From NCBI RefSeq assembly GCF_002283555.1, contig NZ_MVOI01000006.1, positions 824,040 to 888,039 on the forward strand: 64,000 bases of DNA, in the 5' to 3' direction. This DNA comes from Rubrivirga sp. SAORIC476. Its GTDB lineage: Bacteria > Bacteroidota > Rhodothermia > Rhodothermales > Rubricoccaceae. Below the pieces are notes generated by a model that saw nothing but the letters and a program-made list of their open reading frames with translations, was not told the origin of the DNA and searched no databases. Below are positions 6,292-20,340 of this stretch, piece by piece (the stretch's first letter is position 1; the number at the start of each line of letters is the position of its first letter). The position numbers were made by a program, and so were the translations under genes.

Positions 6292-7551
6292 ATGGACACC
6301 ACGGACATGGCCCGCACCCTCAAGCGACGCTCGGTCCGGATCGGCCCCGGATGTCAGGCCGTCCGGCTCCCGACCGGCTGGTGGCACCTCCGGTGGTACG
6401 ACCCGGCCAGGACGCCGACCCAGAAGCAGCACGCCCTCGACACGGACGACGAGGCCATCGCGCTGTCGCGTTCGCGTGAGAGGTTTGACCGGCAACTCGC
6501 TGGGCTCTACGATCCCTGGCGAGGATCCGGTCGCGCCGTCTCGGCTGAGGAGGCGGTTCGGGTCTACGAGGCAGACCACGCCGACCGACACCGCCCGAAG
6601 AGCATCCGGGTGGCCGCGGCGTCGGTTCGCGCGCTTGCCCGCTCCGTACGTCCAGGACCTGAGGGGCGATGGGATCCAGCCGTGGCCGACTCGGGATGCG
6701 ACCCGTCCGACATCGGCATCCGAGAGATCACGTCCGACCATGTGCGGCGGTTCGTGTACCGGCCCGACCTCTCGCGCGCCTCGCAGCTCTCCTACTGGCG
6801 CCGCTTCCGCGCCTGGTTCGGCTGGGCTGCCGACCGCCAGCTCGTCGACGCGAACCCCGTCGACGACGTGCCGCGCCCGTCAGCGGTTCGGGCCGGGATG
6901 AAGCACCTGTCACGGCCGGAGATCGAGCGGCTGCTCGTGGCCATCGAGCATCACCACGGACCCGACGGCCCGGTGCCTCCCCACGTTCGGAGCCGAGACC
7001 GCTACCCGCTCTGGGCGCGCGATGCGTTCGACCTCTACGCTTCGACTGGGCTCCGGAGAGGGGAGGGGATCGCGCTCCGCTGGCGCGACGTCGTCTACCC
7101 CGAGGACTCGGCCTGGGGCGTCGGGTACATCCGTGTCGAGGACGAGGGACGGGTCAACGGTCGGCGGACCAAGACGGGCCGGTCCCGCCGCGTCACCATG
7201 ATCCCCCGGGCCGAGGCGCTCCTCCGCCGCCTCGAGGCCGAGACCCGTCGCACCTCGGATCCGGACGAGCACATCTTGAAGGGCGCCGACGGCATCCGCG
7301 TCGTGAGCGAGCACACGCTGTCTCACAACTTCCGCCGGTACCGCCAGCTGGCGAAGCTGCCCGATGTCCCTCTCCATGGCCTCCGCCACTCGTTCGCTGT
7401 CGAGCTACTGCTCCGGGGAGCGTCGCTCATCCAGGTGCGCGACGAGCTGGGGCACGCGACCGTGCAGACCACCGAGCGGTACCTGGAGCTTCTCCCGGCC
7501 GAGCGGGCCCGCGCGACGGCGGCGCTGTTCGCCGGAGAGCTTGGAACGTGA
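6292..7551 (+). CDS. int: Tyrosine recombinase / phage-type integrase (419 aa)
   Basis: This enzyme carries out site-specific integration and excision of the element. The N-terminal part (about 10-70) is an arm-binding-like domain (GGWWHLRWYDPA-like WWHLRWYD), followed by a SAM-like core-binding domain (about 80-200). The catalytic domain (about 205-419) shows the complete set of residues: Arg I in STGLRRGEG, Lys in RRTKTGRSR, HGLRH (His-x-x-Arg), LGHATVQTTERY with the second His and the nucleophilic Tyr. Length is normal for phage integrases. It is the last gene of the element and is followed by direct repeats at 7580-7609. An alternative start (MARTL) lies five codons downstream. Confidence 0.96.
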   Translation: MDTTDMARTLKRRSVRIGPGCQAVRLPTGWWHLRWYDPARTPTQKQHALDTDDEAIALSRSRERFDRQLAGLYDPWRGSGRAVSAEEAVRVYEADHADRHRPKSIRVAAASVRALARSVRPGPEGRWDPAVADSGCDPSDIGIREITSDHVRRFVYRPDLSRASQLSYWRRFRAWFGWAADRQLVDANPVDDVPRPSAVRAGMKHLSRPEIERLLVAIEHHHGPDGPVPPHVRSRDRYPLWARDAFDLYASTGLRRGEGIALRWRDVVYPEDSAWGVGYIRVEDEGRVNGRRTKTGRSRRVTMIPRAEALLRRLEAETRRTSDPDEHILKGADGIRVVSEHTLSHNFRRYRQLAKLPDVPLHGLRHSFAVELLLRGASLIQVRDELGHATVQTTERYLELLPAERARATAALFAGELGT

Positions 7552-11919: not shown

Positions 11920-12942
11920 ATGCGTTTCGTCTCTGCTGTCTTCCTCGCCGGTCTCCTCGCCCTCTCCGCCCAGGCGCAGACCGAACTCTACCCCGGGCTC
12001 CAGGGAGACGCGCTCCTCAGCGCCATCCGCTCGGACTACACGCCCAACCAAACGCTCGGCTACGGCCCGGCTCGCGACGTGCTCTGGGCCTACACCGACG
12101 ATGCGGACGGCGCGCTGTGCGGGGTCTACACCGGCTTCTGCGTCCAGTTGACGCCGGGCGCCGACCCGTCCTCGGACGCCTTCAACAAGGGCCTCAATGC
12201 CGAGCACACGTGGCCGCAGTCCCTCGGGGCGGGCAACGAGCCTCAGCGGAGCGACATGCACAACCTGTTCCCGACCCGCGTGCAGGTGAACTCGGACCGT
12301 GGCAACGACCCCTTCGGGGAAGTCGCCGACGCATCCGCGCAGCGCTGGTACCGCGGCGCGGTCATCCAGTCGGGCGTGCCGACGACCGACATCGACGAGT
12401 GGAGCGAGGACACCAGCAGCCGATTCGAGCCCCGCGAGGATCACAAGGGCAACGCCGCGCGCGCGGTGTTCTACTTCTACGCCATCTACGACAACGCCAT
12501 CAGCGGCAGCGGCGACTCGTTCTTCGCGGGCATGCTCGGCGACCTCCTGGCGTGGAACGAGGCCAACGACCCCGCCGACGACCGCGAGCGGGCACGGAAC
12601 GCCTTCATCGCGACGCGCCAGGGCAACGAGAACCCGTTCATCCTGGACCCGACCCTCGCGCGGCGCGCCTTCGCCCCGGCCACGGTCGACGCGGAGCGCG
12701 GCCCCGATGGCCTCGCGGTGTCGGTCTTCCCGAACCCGACGGCGGGCCGCCTCGTGGTGTCGCTGAACGAGGCGCGCGACGTGCAGGTCGAGGTGGTGGA
12801 CGCGCTCGGGCGGCGCGTGCAGAGCGCGGCGGGAACCGGCCGGCAGACGCTCGACCTCGGGAGCCTGCCGCTAGGGCTTTACCTTGTCCGCGTGACCACC
12901 GAGGCGGGCACGGTGACGCGGCCGGTGTCGGTGCTCCGGTAG
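11920..12942 (+). CDS. Secreted endonuclease I-type nuclease with T9SS sorting tail (340 aa)
   Basis: A signal peptide (MRFVSAVFLAGLLALSAQAQ) precedes an endonuclease I (EndA/NucM-like) domain at about 25-245, with the conserved NAEHTWPQS and DMHNLFPTR segments, NSDRGNDPFG, and a C-terminal part VFYFYAIYD. The last ~75 residues are a T9SS type-A sorting domain (VFPNPTAGRL, VVDALGRRV, LGLYLVRV). The enzyme should cut DNA and RNA nonspecifically outside the cell or on its surface, giving nutrient nucleotides or removing extracellular DNA. The nearby SGNH-like array carries the same class of tail, suggesting a common export route. Confidence 0.93.
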   Translation: MRFVSAVFLAGLLALSAQAQTELYPGLQGDALLSAIRSDYTPNQTLGYGPARDVLWAYTDDADGALCGVYTGFCVQLTPGADPSSDAFNKGLNAEHTWPQSLGAGNEPQRSDMHNLFPTRVQVNSDRGNDPFGEVADASAQRWYRGAVIQSGVPTTDIDEWSEDTSSRFEPREDHKGNAARAVFYFYAIYDNAISGSGDSFFAGMLGDLLAWNEANDPADDRERARNAFIATRQGNENPFILDPTLARRAFAPATVDAERGPDGLAVSVFPNPTAGRLVVSLNEARDVQVEVVDALGRRVQSAAGTGRQTLDLGSLPLGLYLVRVTTEAGTVTRPVSVLR

Positions 12943-12967: not shown

Positions 12968-14509
12968 ATGCCGCGCGTCCCCGTTCGTCTCCGTCGTCGG
13001 CTGAGCGCTCTGGCGCTGGCCGCGCTCGCATGGGGCGCGCAGGCCCAGACGGAAGACCTGTCTCCGGTGCACCTGGACCTCGTCCGGCCGCACATTCAGG
13101 CGGGGCGCTGGGTCTGGATGGGCGACAGCTTCGCCGTCCCGACGCGGCGGCGGGTGCCGTTCGCGTCCCTGCTGACGTGGCCGCTGGAGCGGGTCGGGGC
13201 GGTGGCGGTGGGCCCGCAGTCGACGCTCGCGATGGCGACGCCGGTGGACGGCACGGCGCGCTGGATCCGCTCGGAGGACGGCTACGTGCTGGGGCGCGGG
13301 ACGAGCCGGGAGGAGCCGATGGGCGTGCCTGTCTACCGCCTCCTGGAAGCAGATCTTCCGGTCGGCGACACGCGATTCGCGCGACTGATCGTCGACCGCG
13401 AGGCGCTGGCGGACGGCAACGCGGGGGCCGCCGGTCGAGCGCTGTCGGGCGACGCGACGGTTCGCCCGCTGCTGTTCGAGCAGGACGAGGCGGACGCCCG
13501 CGGGACGGTCCGCCTCGGTGAGTCGGCCACGCCCCTCGGCACGCCCGGCTTTCGTCTCGGGCGTCCGCTCGGGCTGGGCTTCGGCTCTCGCCTCGCGTCC
13601 GACCTCCGTGCCGACCTTTCGGCTCCCGGCCTCGCTCACCTGGCCGGAGTCGTGGTGGCCGGGCAGCCCGGTCACACGGCCCAGTTCCTCGCCGACGTGT
13701 CGTGGAGCACTACCGGCTTCGCGACCGACGACGCCCCAGCCCCTCCCGACCGAGTCAAGCAGTTCCGCACGGAGCACTTGGCGAACTACCTCCAGGCGAC
13801 CACGCTCGATCCCGCGCAGCCGTCGGTCGTGGCGTTCTACCTCGCCCCGGAGCCGCGACCGGCCGAGGGCGTCGCCGAGACGGTCCGGGCCGTGGTCGCT
13901 CGGGTCCGGGATGCGTTCCAGAAGGCCGGGCTGCCGCGGCCGGTCGTGCTGCTGGTCCACTCCCACGCGGTCGAGACGGAGAGCGTGGCCCAGGCCGAGA
14001 CCGTCGCGTTCGGGCGCGGCCTCCGCGAGGTCGCGCGGGCGGACCCGGAGGTGGCCTTCGTGTCCCTCTACGCCTCGACCGGAGGCGTGGTGTTCGACGG
14101 GCGACCTGAGGCGGTCGCGTGGCTCCAGCGGGAGGGCTGGGCCGAACTGTCCTACGGCACGCACACCGACGGCCGCGACGGGCCGCTCCGCCTCGTGGCC
14201 GACGAGCGTGGCGCCCTGCTCGACGACCGACGCCTCCACCCGACGGAGGCAGGAGCGGCTTTTTTCTCCGCCGTTCTCTATCAGACGCTGACTGCCGAGT
14301 CCCGTGCCCGGGGTGGGGTCGCGGTCCGGACCGTGCTCTTTCCCAACCCGGCCTTCCGGGGGGCTCGCGTGGCGGGAGCGGGCTCGGACCTGCCGATCTA
14401 CGACATCCTCGGACGGCTCGTCGGGCGGACCGGCGTGGACGGGACCTTCTCGGCGCCCCGGGCAGCCGGGGTGTACATCGTCGGACGGACACCCCTGACA
14501 GTACAGTAG
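12968..14509 (+). CDS. Secreted SGNH-hydrolase-like protein, paralogue 1 of 4 (513 aa)
   Basis: The signal peptide ends near AQAQ (residue 27). The conserved start of the mature protein (DLSPVHLDLVRP) is followed by WVWMGDSFAVP with Ser54 as presumed nucleophile (GDS motif). Further family blocks are the PGHTAQFLADVSW region, DPAQPSVVAFYLAPE, PVVLLVHSHA, VAFVSLYASTGGVVFDGRPE and the C-terminal LHPTEAGAAFF (His424). This order (GDS, strand with Val-Val, second strand, His-Pro) matches an SGNH/GDSL fold, but the block III Asn is not recognisable and the Asp usually three residues before His is not there (an Asp five before is conserved). The last ~55 residues are a short sorting-like tail (FPNP, YDILGRLVG, GVYIVGR). 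Substrate unknown; esterase or deacetylase action on surface glycans is a guess. Confidence 0.7.
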   Translation: MPRVPVRLRRRLSALALAALAWGAQAQTEDLSPVHLDLVRPHIQAGRWVWMGDSFAVPTRRRVPFASLLTWPLERVGAVAVGPQSTLAMATPVDGTARWIRSEDGYVLGRGTSREEPMGVPVYRLLEADLPVGDTRFARLIVDREALADGNAGAAGRALSGDATVRPLLFEQDEADARGTVRLGESATPLGTPGFRLGRPLGLGFGSRLASDLRADLSAPGLAHLAGVVVAGQPGHTAQFLADVSWSTTGFATDDAPAPPDRVKQFRTEHLANYLQATTLDPAQPSVVAFYLAPEPRPAEGVAETVRAVVARVRDAFQKAGLPRPVVLLVHSHAVETESVAQAETVAFGRGLREVARADPEVAFVSLYASTGGVVFDGRPEAVAWLQREGWAELSYGTHTDGRDGPLRLVADERGALLDDRRLHPTEAGAAFFSAVLYQTLTAESRARGGVAVRTVLFPNPAFRGARVAGAGSDLPIYDILGRLVGRTGVDGTFSAPRAAGVYIVGRTPLTVQ

Positions 14510-14580
14510 GGGGAGGATCTCAGAAGCGAGAGCGTGCACGACGGGCCGAGGAGTGGGCGTGTGAATTTGGGAGGGCTCCG

Positions 14581-16221
14581 ATGAGCGTGGAGGTGGGTTG
14601 GGTGAGTCGTGATATCTTTTTGGCCTCTCTCCTCAGTGCTCTGGTGTCCCCGTCTGTGAGATTTTCAAAGGGTCGTTATTTTTGTCTAGTGCTCGGGGCC
14701 ATGGTGGGCGCCGCGGCCACGTCCGCTCAGCCTCAGGCCGACCTGTCGCCGGTCCACCTGGACCTGCTCCCGACGCGGGTGCAGACCGGGCGCTGGGTCT
14801 GGATGGGGGACAGCTTCACGGCGCCGTCGCGCGCCCGGGTGCCGTTCGCGTCGCTGCTGACGTGGCCCCTGAACCGTCTCGGCGCCGTCGCGACGGGATC
14901 GCTGGCCCGCATGTCGCGGCTGGTGCCCGGCCCGCTCGGCCGGGAGATCTCCGACGACGACGCGTTCGTCCTCGCCCCGGGCACGCCGCTGGAGTCGACG
15001 ATGGGGCTCCCCGTCTACCGTCTCGTCGAGTGGGACCTGCCGGTGGGCGTCACCGACCTCGGCGACCTCGATGTCTTCCCGACCGAACTCTCGGACGGGC
15101 GCGTTGCGGACCACGGGGGGCTCTTCGGCGGCAACATGACCATCCGCCCGATCCTCTACGCCCAGCCCGGCGCCGAGGCGCGCGGCACGGTCCGCATGGC
15201 GGAGATCGGGAGCGCCGACACGCCGATCCCGCTGGACGGCTTCGCGCTCGGGCCGCCCGCCGCCGTCCGCTCTGATCGCCGCCGGAGCGTCACGGTCACG
15301 GCCGACCTCACCGCGCCGGGCTTCGTCCACCTCGCCGGGATGGTGCTCTCCGGCGCGCCCGGCCACTACGCTCAGTTCCTCGCCGATCGGCGGTGGAGCA
15401 TGTCTGGCTTCGGCGACGACGGCGACCCGACCCCGCCCGACGACATCCAGCGGTTCCGCACGGCGGACCTGGCAGGCTACCTCGCCGCCACCACGCTCGA
15501 CCCCGCGCAGCCGTCGGTGGCGGTGCTCCACCTCGCCCACGAACTCCGCGACCCGGAGGTGCTGCGTCTGCAGGTCGAGGCGGCCGTCGCCCGCGTCCGC
15601 GCGGCGTTCTCGATGGCGGGTCTGCCCACGCCCGTCGTGCTGCTGCTCCACGCGCAGGCTGTCAACGCGCCGACGGTCAACACGGTCGAGGAGAACGAGG
15701 CCGACGGGATCGTGATGCGCGCAGTCGCCCTGGCGGACCCCGGCGTGGCCTTCATCTCGCTCTACGACGTGACCGACGGCGTCGTCTTCGACGGGCGCCC
15801 GGAGGCGCAGGAGTGGCTCGTGGCCAACGGGTACTCCGAGCTGACGTACGGCACCCACCGGGTGGGGCAGGACGGTCCGGTGCGGCTGCTCACCGACCAC
15901 CGGGCGAACCTCCTCGACGAGAACAGCCTCCATCCGACCGAGGCGGGCGCGGCGTTCTTCGCTTACCTGCTCGGCCAGGTGGTGACGGAGTACGCGGTCT
16001 CGGGCCACGTCGGCACTGAGGCGGCGCCGGGCGCGCGCGTCGCGCCGCTGGTTCCGAACCCCGCCCGCCCCGGTGCTCGCGTGCGCGGTGCCGACGCGGG
16101 GGCCCCCATCGTGGATCTGCTGGGGCGCCACCTCGGTGTCGTCGCGGACGACGGGTCGTTCGCTGCTCCTCGCACGGGGGGCGTCTACCTCGTCGGCCGC
16201 ACGCGCCTCGTCGTCCAGTAA
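14581..16221 (+). CDS. Secreted SGNH-hydrolase-like protein, paralogue 2 of 4 (546 aa)
   Basis: It has the same architecture as its neighbour: DLSPVHLDL, WVWMGDSFTAP, GHYAQFLADRRWSM, DPAQPSVAVLHLAHE, PVVLLLHAQA, GVAFISLYDVTDGVVFDGRP, LHPTEAGAAFF and a short tail (VPNPARPG, VDLLGRHLG, GVYLVGR). ATG 14581 has a good purine-rich site (GGGAGG, 6 nt spacing), but it leaves ~45 residues before the mature part. A GTG at 14656 would give a cleaner signal peptide (RFSKGRYFCLVLGAMVG, cut after TSAQ). It is closest to paralogue 3, sharing an APGTPLESTMGLP block. It lies 71 nt after paralogue 1; the leader region is AT-richer than the genes. Confidence 0.7.
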   Translation: MSVEVGWVSRDIFLASLLSALVSPSVRFSKGRYFCLVLGAMVGAAATSAQPQADLSPVHLDLLPTRVQTGRWVWMGDSFTAPSRARVPFASLLTWPLNRLGAVATGSLARMSRLVPGPLGREISDDDAFVLAPGTPLESTMGLPVYRLVEWDLPVGVTDLGDLDVFPTELSDGRVADHGGLFGGNMTIRPILYAQPGAEARGTVRMAEIGSADTPIPLDGFALGPPAAVRSDRRRSVTVTADLTAPGFVHLAGMVLSGAPGHYAQFLADRRWSMSGFGDDGDPTPPDDIQRFRTADLAGYLAATTLDPAQPSVAVLHLAHELRDPEVLRLQVEAAVARVRAAFSMAGLPTPVVLLLHAQAVNAPTVNTVEENEADGIVMRAVALADPGVAFISLYDVTDGVVFDGRPEAQEWLVANGYSELTYGTHRVGQDGPVRLLTDHRANLLDENSLHPTEAGAAFFAYLLGQVVTEYAVSGHVGTEAAPGARVAPLVPNPARPGARVRGADAGAPIVDLLGRHLGVVADDGSFAAPRTGGVYLVGRTRLVVQ

Positions 16222-16306
16222 TCCGTTCGCGCGGGCCCGGGGGGTTCGCGATCGTCCTCGACTTCGCGCACGTCGGTGCGGAGGTCTCGCTTCGTCTCGC
16301 TGCTTC

Positions 16307-17917
16307 ATGCTCTGCTCTGTCTGGTCTCGCTGTTTCATCGGTTTCGCCCTGCCTCGCCACGTCACGCTCGCCGCGCTCCTCGTGCTCTCGGGAGGAGCCA
16401 CAGCCCAGAGCAACTCCGAGCCACACCCCGACCTGTCGCCGGTCAACCTCCACCTCGTCACGACTCGCATCCAGACCGGCCGGTGGATCTGGGTGGGCGA
16501 CAGCTTCGCGGTGCCGTCGCGCAGCCGAGTGTCGTTCTCGTCACTGGCCACGTGGCCGCTGGAACGGATCGGGGCGGTGACGGTGGGGTCGGGCGCCCGG
16601 ACGGCCCGCTTCGTGCCCGACCCCGAGGTCGGCCGTGAAGTGATCTACGAGGAGGGGTACGTGATCGCGCCGGGGACGCCCCTCGAGTCGACGATGGGGC
16701 TGCCGCTGTACCGCCTCCTGGAGTGGGACCTCCCGGCCGGGCCGACCGACCTGGGCACGCTCGACGTGTTCCGGGCGGAGTTGGACGACAGCCACGCAGC
16801 GGCCCACGGCGGGCTCTTCGTCGGCGGCGCCTCGATCCGGCCGCTGCTCTACGCCCAGCCGGGCGCCGAGGCGCGCGGGGTGCTGCGCATGGCGGAGACG
16901 GAGGCGGCGGAGAGCCCCCTGCCCCTGGAGGGCTTCGCGCTCGGCGAGCCCGCGCCGCTGGCGACCGTCCGCCACTCCGAAGTGTCGGTCACCGCGGACC
17001 TGACGGCGCCGGGCTTCGTCCACCTCGCCGGGTCGGTGCTGAGCGGAGCGCCGGGCCACTACGCTCAGTTCCTCGGCGACGCCTCGTGGAGCTACTGGGG
17101 CTACGCACAAGACGGCGACCCGGCGCTACCGGACTCCGTCAAGCAGTTTCGGACGGCCCACTTCGCGGACTACCTCCAGGCGACCACGCTGGACCTGGCG
17201 CAGCCGACCGTGGTCGCGGTCTACCTCGCCCAGGAGCGGCGCATCATGCCGGTCCTCCAGGAGGTGCTTCAGGGCGTCGTGAACCGCACACGGGCGTCCT
17301 TTCAGCAGGCGGGACTGCCGGAGCCGGTCATCCTGTTCATCCACCCGCACGCCATCGAGACGGTGGTCGTCAACGACGTAGACACGAACACGCGCGCGGC
17401 GGTCGCGATGCGCACCATCGCCCTGAGCGATCCCGGCGTCGCGTTCGTGTCCCTGTACGACGCCACCGACGGGGTCGTCTTCGATGGGCGGCCCGAGGCG
17501 CTGTCCTGGCTCCAGAGCCACGCCCTCGACCGGCTCTCGTTCGGCACCCACGTGGAGGGTCAGGACGGTCCGATCGGCCTGATCGACGAGTACCGGGGCA
17601 ACCTGCTCGACGACAACCGGCTGCACCCGACCCAGGTGGGCGCGGCCTTCTACGCCTACGTCCTCGGCCAGGTGCTGACCGAGTTCGCCGTGTCGGGCAG
17701 CACGAGCACCGCCGACGAGCCCGAGCAGGGACGGGGGGGGAGGCTGGCGCCCAACCCGGCGCGTCCGGGCACGCGCGTGCGCGGTGCGACGGCGGGGACG
17801 CCGGTGGTCGACCTCCTCGGCCGCCATCTCACCGAGGTGGAGGCCGACGGGACGTTCGCCGCGCCAGCGGTGCCTGGCATCTACCTCGTCGGTCGTCAGC
17901 GCCTCGTCGTGGGCTGA
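16307..17917 (+). CDS. Secreted SGNH-hydrolase-like protein, paralogue 3 of 4 (536 aa)
   Basis: The ATG at 16307 gives a signal peptide ending near GGATAQ. The mature part begins HPDLSPVNLHL and has WIWVGDSFAVP (note Val for Met before GDS), GHYAQFLGDASWSYWGY, DLAQPTVVAVYLAQE, PVILFIHPHA, GVAFVSLYDATDGVVFDGRP and LHPTQVGAAFY. The tail is short: APNPARPGTRVRG, VDLLGRHL, GIYLVGRQRLVV. It is strongly similar to paralogue 2 in the 200-residue middle part (AQPGAEARG; APGTPLESTMGLP), so these two probably arose by the most recent duplication. It begins 85 nt after paralogue 2 and is followed by a hairpin at 17943-17961. Confidence 0.7.
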   Translation: MLCSVWSRCFIGFALPRHVTLAALLVLSGGATAQSNSEPHPDLSPVNLHLVTTRIQTGRWIWVGDSFAVPSRSRVSFSSLATWPLERIGAVTVGSGARTARFVPDPEVGREVIYEEGYVIAPGTPLESTMGLPLYRLLEWDLPAGPTDLGTLDVFRAELDDSHAAAHGGLFVGGASIRPLLYAQPGAEARGVLRMAETEAAESPLPLEGFALGEPAPLATVRHSEVSVTADLTAPGFVHLAGSVLSGAPGHYAQFLGDASWSYWGYAQDGDPALPDSVKQFRTAHFADYLQATTLDLAQPTVVAVYLAQERRIMPVLQEVLQGVVNRTRASFQQAGLPEPVILFIHPHAIETVVVNDVDTNTRAAVAMRTIALSDPGVAFVSLYDATDGVVFDGRPEALSWLQSHALDRLSFGTHVEGQDGPIGLIDEYRGNLLDDNRLHPTQVGAAFYAYVLGQVLTEFAVSGSTSTADEPEQGRGGRLAPNPARPGTRVRGATAGTPVVDLLGRHLTEVEADGTFAAPAVPGIYLVGRQRLVVG

Positions 17918-17942
17918 CCGAGCCAGAGAAGAGAACCGGAGA

Positions 17943-17961
17943 GGCCCCTCTCGGAGGGGCC
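17943..17961. terminator. Hairpin after SGNH-like paralogue 3
   Basis: Perfect 8-bp stem GGCCCCTC / GAGGGGCC with loop TCG, 25 nt after the stop codon. There is no T-tract after it, so it may be a weak terminator or an mRNA-stabilising hairpin. It separates paralogue 4 from the first three. Confidence 0.45.
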
Positions 17962-18090
17962 GGACTGTCCCCGGCAGGGTGGGGGCAAATGGGAGTGGAC
18001 TGCCGGAAAGGGTGCAAGTGAGTGGGTATTCTAATCATGTGTGTGAGGACTTTCATCTCGCCTGTGATCCATCCCGTTTGCTGAGAGACG

Positions 18091-19656
18091 ATGCGGCTGC
18101 CAGTGTTTACAAGGGTTTGGGTCCTGATCATGCTGGCTTCTGGAGGTGGGGCTGCACAGACCCTCTCCAATCCTCCGGACCTGTCGCCGGTCGACGTCGA
18201 CCTCGTCCGGCCCCTGATCGCGGAGGGACGCTGGATCTGGATGGGCGACAGCTACGCTGTGCCGTACCGGTTGCGCGTCCCATTCGCGACGCTGGTGACG
18301 TGGCCGCTTTCGCACGTGGGCGCGGTCTCCGTCGGCCCGAAGTCTCCGCTCGGGCGTCAGGTGCCGGCCGAGATTCAGCCGCAGGTCGTGGCCGACGGCA
18401 ACGGCTTCGTGCTGGCCGCCGGGACACCGACGGAGGACCGCATGGGGCTCCCGCTGTACCAGATGCTGGAATGGGACCTCCCGGCAGGCGACAGCGACCT
18501 GGGGAGGATGTACCTGGGCTTCTCCTACCTCCTGGACGGGTACGCGGCGCTCGACGGGACCCCGTTCAATGGACCGACCGAGGCGAGGCCCCTCGTGTAC
18601 ACCCGCCCCGGGGCAGCGAGCCCGAGTCGCCTGCGCTACTCGGACACCTCAGAAACGCCGTCGCCCCGCCTCGTGGGAGACGCCGACGGGTTCGCGCTGG
18701 GACAGGGCACGGCCATCGAGACCTCGCGGGACCGTCTGGTCCCGCTCCGGGCGTCCCTCGACGTGCCCGAGGTGGTCCACCTCGCGGGCACCGTGATCGC
18801 GGGCGAGCCCGGCCACTACGCCCAGTTCCTCGGCGACGAGTCGTGGAGCTACTGGGGGTTCAGTTCCGACGCCGACCCGGTCCCGGACTCGCTGAAGCGG
18901 TTCCGTACCGATGACCTGGCCGGGTACCTCGCCGCGACGACCCTGGACCCGGCGCAGCCGTCGGTGGTCGCCATCCACCTCGCGCACGAGCGTCGCCCGG
19001 AGGCGCTGCTCCGGACCACACTGGAGCGCATGGTGGCCCAGACCCGCGACGCCTTCGACCGGTCAGGTCTCGGCGCGCCCGTGATCCTGTTCGTCCACCC
19101 CCAGGCGATCGACACGGCCATCATCGACACGGCCGAAAAGAATGAGCGGAACGGAGTCGTGATGCGCGAGATGGCGCTCGCTGACGACCGGATCGCATTC
19201 GTGTCGCTCTACGATGCCACCGACGGGGTCGTGTTCGACGGGCGCCCGGAGGCGCGCGCCTGGCTGGAAGCTTCCCCCTACGCATCCTTCTGCTTCGGAT
19301 CGCGGTGCCGCGGCCGCGCCGTCGAACTCCTCGCCGAGTCCGGGGGCAACCTGCTGGACGCGAGGCGGCTCCACACGACCGAGCACGGCGCCCTGTTCTT
19401 CTCCGCCCTGCTCGGCGAACTCCTCACCGGCCGACCGGTGGCCTGCGACTGCCCGACCGAACCGCCGCCAGCGAGTGGCCTGCTGTTCCCCAATCCCATC
19501 CGCACCGGCGACTGGGTGTCGGGCGCGCTCCCCGACGAGCCGGTCTACGACGCCCGGGGTCGCCGCGTCGGCCGGACCGACCCTGCCGGGAGGTTCGTCG
19601 CGCCGTCGGTGCCGGGCGTCTACTTCGTCGGCGGCGCCCGGCTGGTGGTGCAGTAG
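18091..19656 (+). CDS. Secreted SGNH-hydrolase-like protein, paralogue 4 of 4 (521 aa)
   Basis: The signal peptide (MRLPVFTRVWVLIMLASGGG, cut near AAQ) is followed by DLSPVDVDLVRPLI and WIWMGDSYAVP with Ser54 at the same residue number as in paralogue 1. Family blocks: GHYAQFLGDESWSYWGF, DPAQPSVVAIHLAHE, PVILFVHPQA, IAFVSLYDATDGVVFDGRP. It is the most divergent member: the C-terminal His block is LHTTEHGALFF (Pro lost), a CFGSRCRGR insert adds two cysteines, and the sorting tail starts after a CDCPTEPPPASG linker. It lies 173 nt after paralogue 3, preceded by AT-richer sequence and a hairpin, so it may have its own promoter. It converges on the HAD gene with 3 nt between the stops. Confidence 0.7.
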   Translation: MRLPVFTRVWVLIMLASGGGAAQTLSNPPDLSPVDVDLVRPLIAEGRWIWMGDSYAVPYRLRVPFATLVTWPLSHVGAVSVGPKSPLGRQVPAEIQPQVVADGNGFVLAAGTPTEDRMGLPLYQMLEWDLPAGDSDLGRMYLGFSYLLDGYAALDGTPFNGPTEARPLVYTRPGAASPSRLRYSDTSETPSPRLVGDADGFALGQGTAIETSRDRLVPLRASLDVPEVVHLAGTVIAGEPGHYAQFLGDESWSYWGFSSDADPVPDSLKRFRTDDLAGYLAATTLDPAQPSVVAIHLAHERRPEALLRTTLERMVAQTRDAFDRSGLGAPVILFVHPQAIDTAIIDTAEKNERNGVVMREMALADDRIAFVSLYDATDGVVFDGRPEARAWLEASPYASFCFGSRCRGRAVELLAESGGNLLDARRLHTTEHGALFFSALLGELLTGRPVACDCPTEPPPASGLLFPNPIRTGDWVSGALPDEPVYDARGRRVGRTDPAGRFVAPSVPGVYFVGGARLVVQ

Positions 19657-19659
19657 GCG

Positions 19660-20340
19660 CTACAGCCGGTCGAGCGAGAAGCCCTCGAGCGTGTCCAGCA
19701 CCAGATCCGCCTCGCGGAGGTCGTCGGCCGAGTAGTAGCCGGTCGCGACGGCCACCGCGACCGCGCCGACGGCCCGGGCGCACGCGATGTCGCGCGGTGT
19801 GTCGCCGATGATGACCAGTTCCTCGTGCGCCACCTCGCGCCCGAACCGCTTCGAGGCGCGCTGCGCGGCGATCACCGGCAGCGTGTTGCGGTCGGCGTGG
19901 TCGCTGCCGAAGGCGCCGAAGGGCAGCTCGGCCGCGCTCAGGTCGATCCGCTCGATCTTGCGGTACGCCAGCGGCTCCAGGTTGCCGGTCAGCATGCCCA
20001 TCTCCGCGCCCTCGGCGGCGAGGCGGCGGACGAGCGACACGGCGCCGGGCAGGTCCTCGACGGTCGCCTCGGGCAGGTTGGCGTGCATCCGGTCGGCGTA
20101 GAGCGACAGGAAGGCGTCCGTGTGCGAGCGGTCCACGGGCAACCCCCGCTCGGCTGCGGCGTCGAGGATCTCGCCGAAGATCTGAGGGTCGGTCTTGCCC
20201 GAGAACGAGATGTCCGAAAAGTCGAACGTCTCACCTGCGAGGTCGGTCAGCGCGGCATTCACGGAGCGGCGGCCGACGCCGTGCGACTGGAGCAGCGTGC
20301 CGTCGATGTCGAAGAGGAGGACCGGGGAGGAAGTGGGCAC
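19660..20340 (-). CDS. HAD-superfamily phosphatase, phosphoglycolate-phosphatase-like (226 aa)
   Basis: Motif I is LLFDIDGTLL (Asp nucleophile and acid/base Asp), motif II MLTGN, a Lys/Arg-bearing helix RKIERI, and motif IV IGDTPRDIACARA. The helical cap between motifs I and II (about residues 20-95) fits the Gph/PGP branch. Reaction: hydrolysis of a small phosphate ester, possibly 2-phosphoglycolate formed during DNA repair. The start is taken as GTG at 20340, six residues before the first strand; the frame is open far upstream, but that part lies outside the fold. It is divergent from polA with a 207-bp gap. Confidence 0.88.
   Translation of the reverse strand: MPTSSPVLLFDIDGTLLQSHGVGRRSVNAALTDLAGETFDFSDISFSGKTDPQIFGEILDAAAERGLPVDRSHTDAFLSLYADRMHANLPEATVEDLPGAVSLVRRLAAEGAEMGMLTGNLEPLAYRKIERIDLSAAELPFGAFGSDHADRNTLPVIAAQRASKRFGREVAHEELVIIGDTPRDIACARAVGAVAVAVATGYYSADDLREADLVLDTLEGFSLDRL

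Follow-up and report, generated by a model that had tools for sequence, protein, structure and literature searches.

Four tandem genes of Rubrivirga encode members of a divergent SGNH family, putative exported carbohydrate O-acylesterases

In this study, we examined a 64,000-nucleotide stretch of the genome of Rubrivirga sp. SAORIC476 (contig NZ_MVOI01000006.1; hereafter the window), in which four adjacent genes on the plus strand encode similar proteins of 513–546 residues. The locus raises the questions of what kind of proteins these are and why four of them stand side by side. A first-pass annotation had described them as tandem secreted paralogues resembling SGNH hydrolases, of a family that it could not name. 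Four open reading frames were indeed found in the window, and a search of the whole genome with one copy as the query returned exactly these four, with E-values of 1e-125 or better. Our analyses indicate that the proteins probably belong to a divergent family of SGNH enzymes and act as exported carbohydrate O-acylesterases, with a layout like that of the peptidoglycan O-acetylesterase Ape1. What is new is a narrowly distributed divergent family, not a new kind of system.

Predicted fold and inserted domain

The fold was approached through structure prediction and, independently, through profile comparison. Two AlphaFold2 (AF2) models were obtained, one of a full-length protein (model 1; 4 sequences, predicted local distance difference test score (pLDDT) 49.6, predicted template modelling score (pTM) 0.56) and one of the core of copy 3 (core model; five sequences, pLDDT 55.9, pTM 0.65). 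The predicted order of elements is a beta strand carrying the GDS motif, an inserted beta-sandwich, alternating helices and strands, and a final helix after LHxTxxGA. Comparison of model 1 with known structures using VIA-align yielded SGNH structures in nearly all rows, with Ape1 first (Z 9.7, 236 residues aligned). The core model gave a stronger match to Ape1 (Z 12.0, root-mean-square deviation 4.2), in which 265 of 417 residues were aligned over a span of 2 to 417, and the next family followed at Z 7.9; the insert itself matched CBM35 and other sugar-binding sandwiches. A Foldseek search, a check that the annotation had proposed, placed Ape1 (4k3u) ahead of CE20 and acetylxylan esterases with an E-value of 1.2e-5 and a probability of 1.00 for this low-confidence model.

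For the profile comparison, a profile of the core was aligned to 24 PF13472 SGNH domains from the same bacterial family. With the insert removed, the two were in register from the GDS motif to strand 4 (P 1.6e-4), with a score of 34.1 that none of 150 column-shuffled profiles reached and that the reversed profile, at 14.9, did not reach either. A second, weaker alignment paired LHPTxxGA with the HPTxxG of block V. An SGNH fold with an inserted sandwich is therefore supported by prediction, and the SGNH-type core of the annotation appears to be borne out, with two canonical residues absent. Two other sets of candidates were set aside. Matches of the cores to picornaviral 3C and YD/RHS repeat proteins were at chance level, and SGNH proteins of the same genomes with a spread-out PF13472 match, considered as closer relatives, were mostly TPR-containing membrane proteins that do not have the block I insert.

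Ape1 (Neisseria 4k3u, Campylobacter 8gkd/8gld) consists of catalytic halves (residues 45–99 and 227–393) around a CBM35-like sandwich (residues 104–221; PMC6174289). The proteins encoded by the array are predicted to share this split SGNH domain with a CBM35-like sandwich inserted after block I, as well as a GDS nucleophile block and a C-terminal block V histidine, and in both models Ape1 ranked first among the structural matches across the whole core. However, there is no detectable sequence relation between them, and the residues Gly236, Asn268 and Asp366-x-x-His369 of Ape1 (PMC6174289) contrast with a Glu in place of the Asn and an Asp at His-5 in the proteins studied here. Moreover, Ape1 is periplasmic with peptidoglycan as its substrate, whereas these proteins have a tail of the type IX secretion system (T9SS) kind; because of that tail they should be outside the cell, which favours an external substrate. 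Carbohydrate esterases of family CE20 with an ancillary domain (9h4u, 9ega) likewise have an SGNH domain interrupted by a beta-sandwich, together with a catalytic acid of an unconventional kind and a block III that does not have the ordinary Asn (PMC12313940). They differ in having GQSNM in block I and DxH in block V, as opposed to GDS and LLDxxxLH, and two further sandwich domains, whereas the array proteins have no flanking sandwich except the sorting tail. With SGNH/GDSL hydrolases in general (PF13472, CE2, CE3, SASA) the likeness lies in the predicted fold, the order of blocks I, III and V and the profile similarity, but the proteins described here are below Pfam and NCBIfam detection and their blocks III and V are non-canonical.

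Active site, export and probable function

Five members were compared, namely the four copies and a single copy from a second Rubrivirga genome (G001). The shared blocks listed by the annotation were all recovered, and most of them do not vary among the members: DLSPV, W[VI]W[MV]GDS, PGH[YT]AQF, LDxxQPxV followed by LAxExR, GVVFDGRPEA and LLDxxxLHxT. The block that it had called GHYAQFL lies in the last strands of the inserted beta-sandwich; neither this point nor the Ape1-like layout had been made there. Both the serine of the block I GDS and the block V histidine (LHxTxxGA) are invariant in 5/5 members, and the latter pairs weakly with the DGxHP of SGNH proteins in the profile alignment. The Asp at His-5 and the Glu and Arg of LAxExR are equally invariant (5/5). 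A candidate for block II is the invariant Gly in WSxxG after the insert, whose distance to block III exceeds that in Ape1.

Each protein begins with a plausible signal peptide, read from the sequence, and ends in a tail of ~58 residues with the consensus PNPxxxGxxVxGAxxxxPxxDxxGR...GxFxAPxxxGxYxVxxxxLxV. A profile of these tails matched 14 further places in the genome at E-values up to 0.01 (best 8.7e-6), all of which are protein C-termini with the T9SS pattern PNP...DxLGR...GxYxV; one of five scanned against Pfam passes the Por_Secre_tail cut-off. The genome also has a T9SS, as its core protein SprA was found above cut-off (1437 bits). Judged by sequence, what the annotation had called sorting-like tails appears to be a T9SS type-A sorting domain in a divergent and shortened form. 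It has the PNP...DxLGR...GVYxV of that domain (TIGR04183, PF18962) at the extreme C-terminus, but the type-A domain runs for ~75 residues from PNP to the end and the tails fall under the curated cut-offs. The suggestion of export through the T9SS is thus supported by the tail relationship and by SprA. Two nearly identical T9SS-tail fragments were also seen at the ends of two contigs (G000:C3:2163568-2163753 and G000:C5:98-283), and are probably a repeat that broke the assembly.

In the mechanism we propose, the signal peptide would take each protein over the inner membrane, the protein would fold with its split SGNH halves on either side of the inserted CBM35-like beta-sandwich, and the T9SS would pass it outside via the shortened C-terminal sorting domain. 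There, the inserted domain would hold a polysaccharide against the active site, acting as the element of binding and specificity, and the serine of the GDS motif would remove acetyl or other small acyl groups, with the block V histidine activating it. A more specific proposal, which we offer tentatively and regard as somewhat doubtful, is that the T9SS-exported family has an active-site arrangement of its own, with an oxyanion hole that dispenses with the block III Asn and has the invariant Glu and Arg of LAxExR instead, a catalytic acid supplied from the His-5 position or from the invariant VFDGRP loop, and diversification via the inserted sugar-binding domain.

Several observations weigh against the proposal that these are esterases. 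Both AF2 models are of low confidence, with the stretch between blocks IV and V poorly modelled, and neither Pfam, NCBIfam and PHROG models nor a PDB sequence search gave a relevant match to the cores, in keeping with the earlier statement that the family could not be named. The block III Asn (GxND) is absent from 5/5 members, which have LAxExR; in the profile alignment, LA falls opposite LG and no Asn is seen, and the oxyanion Asn appears to be replaced by Glu. The five members carry R, N, N, R and A at His-3, and none of them has the expected Asp there. In addition, no polysaccharide utilisation or degradation locus was found among the neighbouring genes scanned around the array. Since the block III Asn and the His-3 Asp are not conserved, a plain SGNH catalytic site is not claimed. 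Known SGNH enzymes tolerate such changes, as exemplified by the Ser-His dyads of CE2, the oxyanion hole of SASA enzymes (block I Gln with HQGE) and an Arg in BcPatB1 (PMC9487903), and the water-mediated triad of CE20 (PMC12313940). By analogy with these enzymes, esterase or deacetylase activity of the array proteins is plausible.

An alternative is that the proteins are non-catalytic, that is, exported glycan-binding proteins on an SGNH scaffold with a decayed active site, the insert being a surface lectin. The change of the block III Asn to Glu in all five members and the lack of an Asp at His-3 would suit such proteins, as would a fast-evolving insert that resembles carbohydrate-binding modules. 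A decayed site should drift, however, and here the GDS, the LLD, the block V His and both the Glu and the Arg of block III show no variation among sequences of 49–61% identity; SGNH proteins whose sites have a Ser-His dyad, a water-mediated triad or an oxyanion hole built without Asn are, moreover, active (PMC12313940, PMC9487903). We consider decay to be unlikely on this evidence, and find it harder still to favour exported acyltransferases, which would attach acyl groups to a surface polysaccharide or shift them on it in the manner of the SGNH partners of MBOAT proteins (PatB, AlgX type). Unusual block II and III residues are frequent in SGNH acyltransferases (PMC9487903), and Campylobacter and Neisseria PatB are among the structural matches, but the PatB match is weaker than that of Ape1 (Z 7.8 vs 9.7), no MBOAT gene was found among the twenty neighbouring genes scanned, and an extracellular T9SS location would part the protein from a membrane acyl donor.

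The least probable of the alternatives, to which we give very little credence, is a fold other than SGNH, with the structural matches arising from poor modelling and from a GDS motif present by chance. It draws on the pLDDT of <60 in both models and the very few sequences in the alignment, and it is opposed by the agreement among the two models, the Foldseek and VIA-align results and the independent, shuffle-controlled profile comparison, as well as by a block order that matches the SGNH fold. Were the proteins active O-acylesterases, they would represent a carbohydrate-esterase family unnamed in present databases that combines an Ape1-like layout, T9SS export and a non-canonical SGNH site, and would help to test how much change the SGNH catalytic blocks can undergo as long as the fold and the Ser-His pair are kept.

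Distribution and divergence of the copies

The core family was found in two genomes only, the source genome with its four copies and G001 with exactly one, which lies at the same locus between the same nuclease and HAD-like genes. Profile searches covered nine genomes from the bacterial family, 245 from the class and a 395-genome sample from the phylum, and returned only these two Rubrivirga genomes. In a pattern scan of 84,980 species genomes, the alignment query identified one contig of a Rubrivirga metagenome-assembled genome, taken to be the same assembly as G001, and a single-sequence query gave no match. No family member was found in plasmids, phages or viral contigs. A third Rubrivirga genome (G003) has the same two flanking genes ~55 bases apart with nothing between them, so that within one genus the interval flanked by these two genes holds 0, 1 or 4 copies, a clean evolutionary series. 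Because G001 and G003 group together to the exclusion of the source genome (identities of 91% vs 72% for the HAD-like protein and 82% vs 63% for the nuclease), the simplest history would be that an array gene was present in the common ancestor and was lost in G003, with independent gain as the alternative.

Core identity among the copies is 49–61%. As the annotation had noted, copies 2 and 3 are closest (61.3%) and copy 4 is the most diverged (49–52%). The phylogeny that it had proposed confirmed only the pairing of copies 2 and 3 (support 96/97), the unrooted paralogue tree being otherwise star-like. The G001 copy has 50–53% identity to the paralogues, about equal to the distance between the paralogues themselves, and because of this and the star-like tree the duplications are judged to be old and to date from around the time of the species split; some copies may have been lost from G001. 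In every pair, conservation is higher at codon positions 1 and 2 than at position 3 (0.65–0.76 vs 0.47–0.61), a pattern that would be expected under purifying selection, and no recent gene conversion among the copies was seen in windowed DNA identity. The insert is the least conserved part of the proteins, with a mean identity of 44.5%, whereas the two catalytic pieces reach 66% and 56%. The annotation had left open whether four copies serve dose or different substrates; with copies that are old and conserved at the codon level, and an insert that is the most variable part, different ligands fit better than dose, and the comparison suggests that each copy has its own glycan or glycans.

Coordinates and neighbouring genes

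Copies 2 and 3 have frames that stay open some way upstream, which leaves their start positions uncertain. The best candidates are 14581 for copy 2 (an ATG with GGGAGG upstream) and 16307 for copy 3.

Table 1. Features of the array and its borders, with positions in the window
Feature	Position	Strand	Basis or remark
Secreted endonuclease I with T9SS tail	11920..12942	+	PF04231 E 7e-31, TIGR04183 E 4e-13; locus position kept in relatives
Copy 1	12968..14509	+	513 aa; signal peptide, split SGNH core (predicted), T9SS-like tail
Copy 1 block I GRWVWMGDS, putative nucleophile Ser54	13103..13129	+	GDS invariant in 5/5 members
Copy 1 inserted beta-sandwich, limits approximate	13208..13693	+	AF2 strands, CBM35-type matches, limits by alignment
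Copy 1 block III position LAPEPR	13841..13858	+	Invariant Glu at SGNH Asn position
Copy 1 block V LLDDRRLHPTEAGA, putative catalytic His	14216..14257	+	D and H invariant in 5/5 members
Copy 1 shortened T9SS type-A-like sorting tail	14336..14509	+	TIGR04183 E 0.0025, below curated cut-off; profile matches to the genome's other C-terminal tails
Copy 2	14581..16221	+	546 aa counted from ATG 14581; alternative start GTG 14656
Copy 2 block I GRWVWMGDS	14788..14814	+	Alignment
Copy 2 inserted beta-sandwich, limits approximate	14893..15384	+	AF2 core-model strands, CBM35-type matches, alignment
Copy 2 block III position LAHELR	15532..15549	+	
Copy 2 block V LLDENSLHPTEAGA	15910..15951	+	
Copy 2 sorting tail	16048..16221	+	Profile relation to other tails
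Copy 3	16307..17917	+	536 aa
Copy 3 block I GRWIWVGDS	16478..16504	+	Alignment
Copy 3 inserted beta-sandwich, limits approximate	16583..17077	+	AF2 core-model strands, CBM35-type matches, alignment
Copy 3 block III position LAQERR	17225..17242	+	
Copy 3 block V LLDDNRLHPTQVGA	17603..17644	+	
Copy 3 sorting tail	17744..17917	+	Profile relation to other tails
Copy 4	18091..19656	+	521 aa; most diverged
Copy 4 block I GRWIWMGDS	18226..18252	+	Alignment
Copy 4 inserted beta-sandwich, limits approximate	18331..18834	+	AF2 model 1, structural matches, alignment
Copy 4 block III position LAHERR	18979..18996	+	
Copy 4 block V LLDARRLHTTEHGA	19351..19392	+	
Copy 4 sorting tail	19483..19656	+	TIGR04183 scan, profile relation to other tails
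Putative HAD-like phosphatase, right border of array, convergent	19660..20340	-	Adjoins same locus in relatives; name from LLFDIDGTLL motif

The adjacent secreted nuclease noted by the annotation is a Pfam Endonuclease_1 protein with a T9SS tail of its own. Its stop codon is 25 bases from the start of copy 1, a gap that is the sole basis on which co-transcription of the two is suggested. Beside the nuclease stop in G003 there is a perfect or near-perfect 20-base GC hairpin (CCGCCTCGGC...GCCGAGGCGG), with a close counterpart beside the G001 nuclease. In the window, the interval from the nuclease to copy 1 showed no such hairpin, and so read-through into the array would be possible only in the source genome. 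At the other end of the array, copy 4 and the HAD-like gene are convergent, with stop codons 3 bases apart.

A strong GC inverted repeat (GGCCCCTC...GAGGGGCC) lies at 17930-17960, after copy 3 and inside the 173-base gap before copy 4, and may separate transcription of copy 4 from that of copies 1–3. A tyrosine recombinase gene (6292-7551; Phage_integrase, E 4e-19) is located ~5 kb upstream of the array. The T9SS-tailed endonuclease I has several more full-domain paralogues in the source genome (G000:C11:64261, C6:520283 and C3:1757829) and in relatives; as read from their domains, this is an expanded set of exported nucleases in the Rubricoccaceae.

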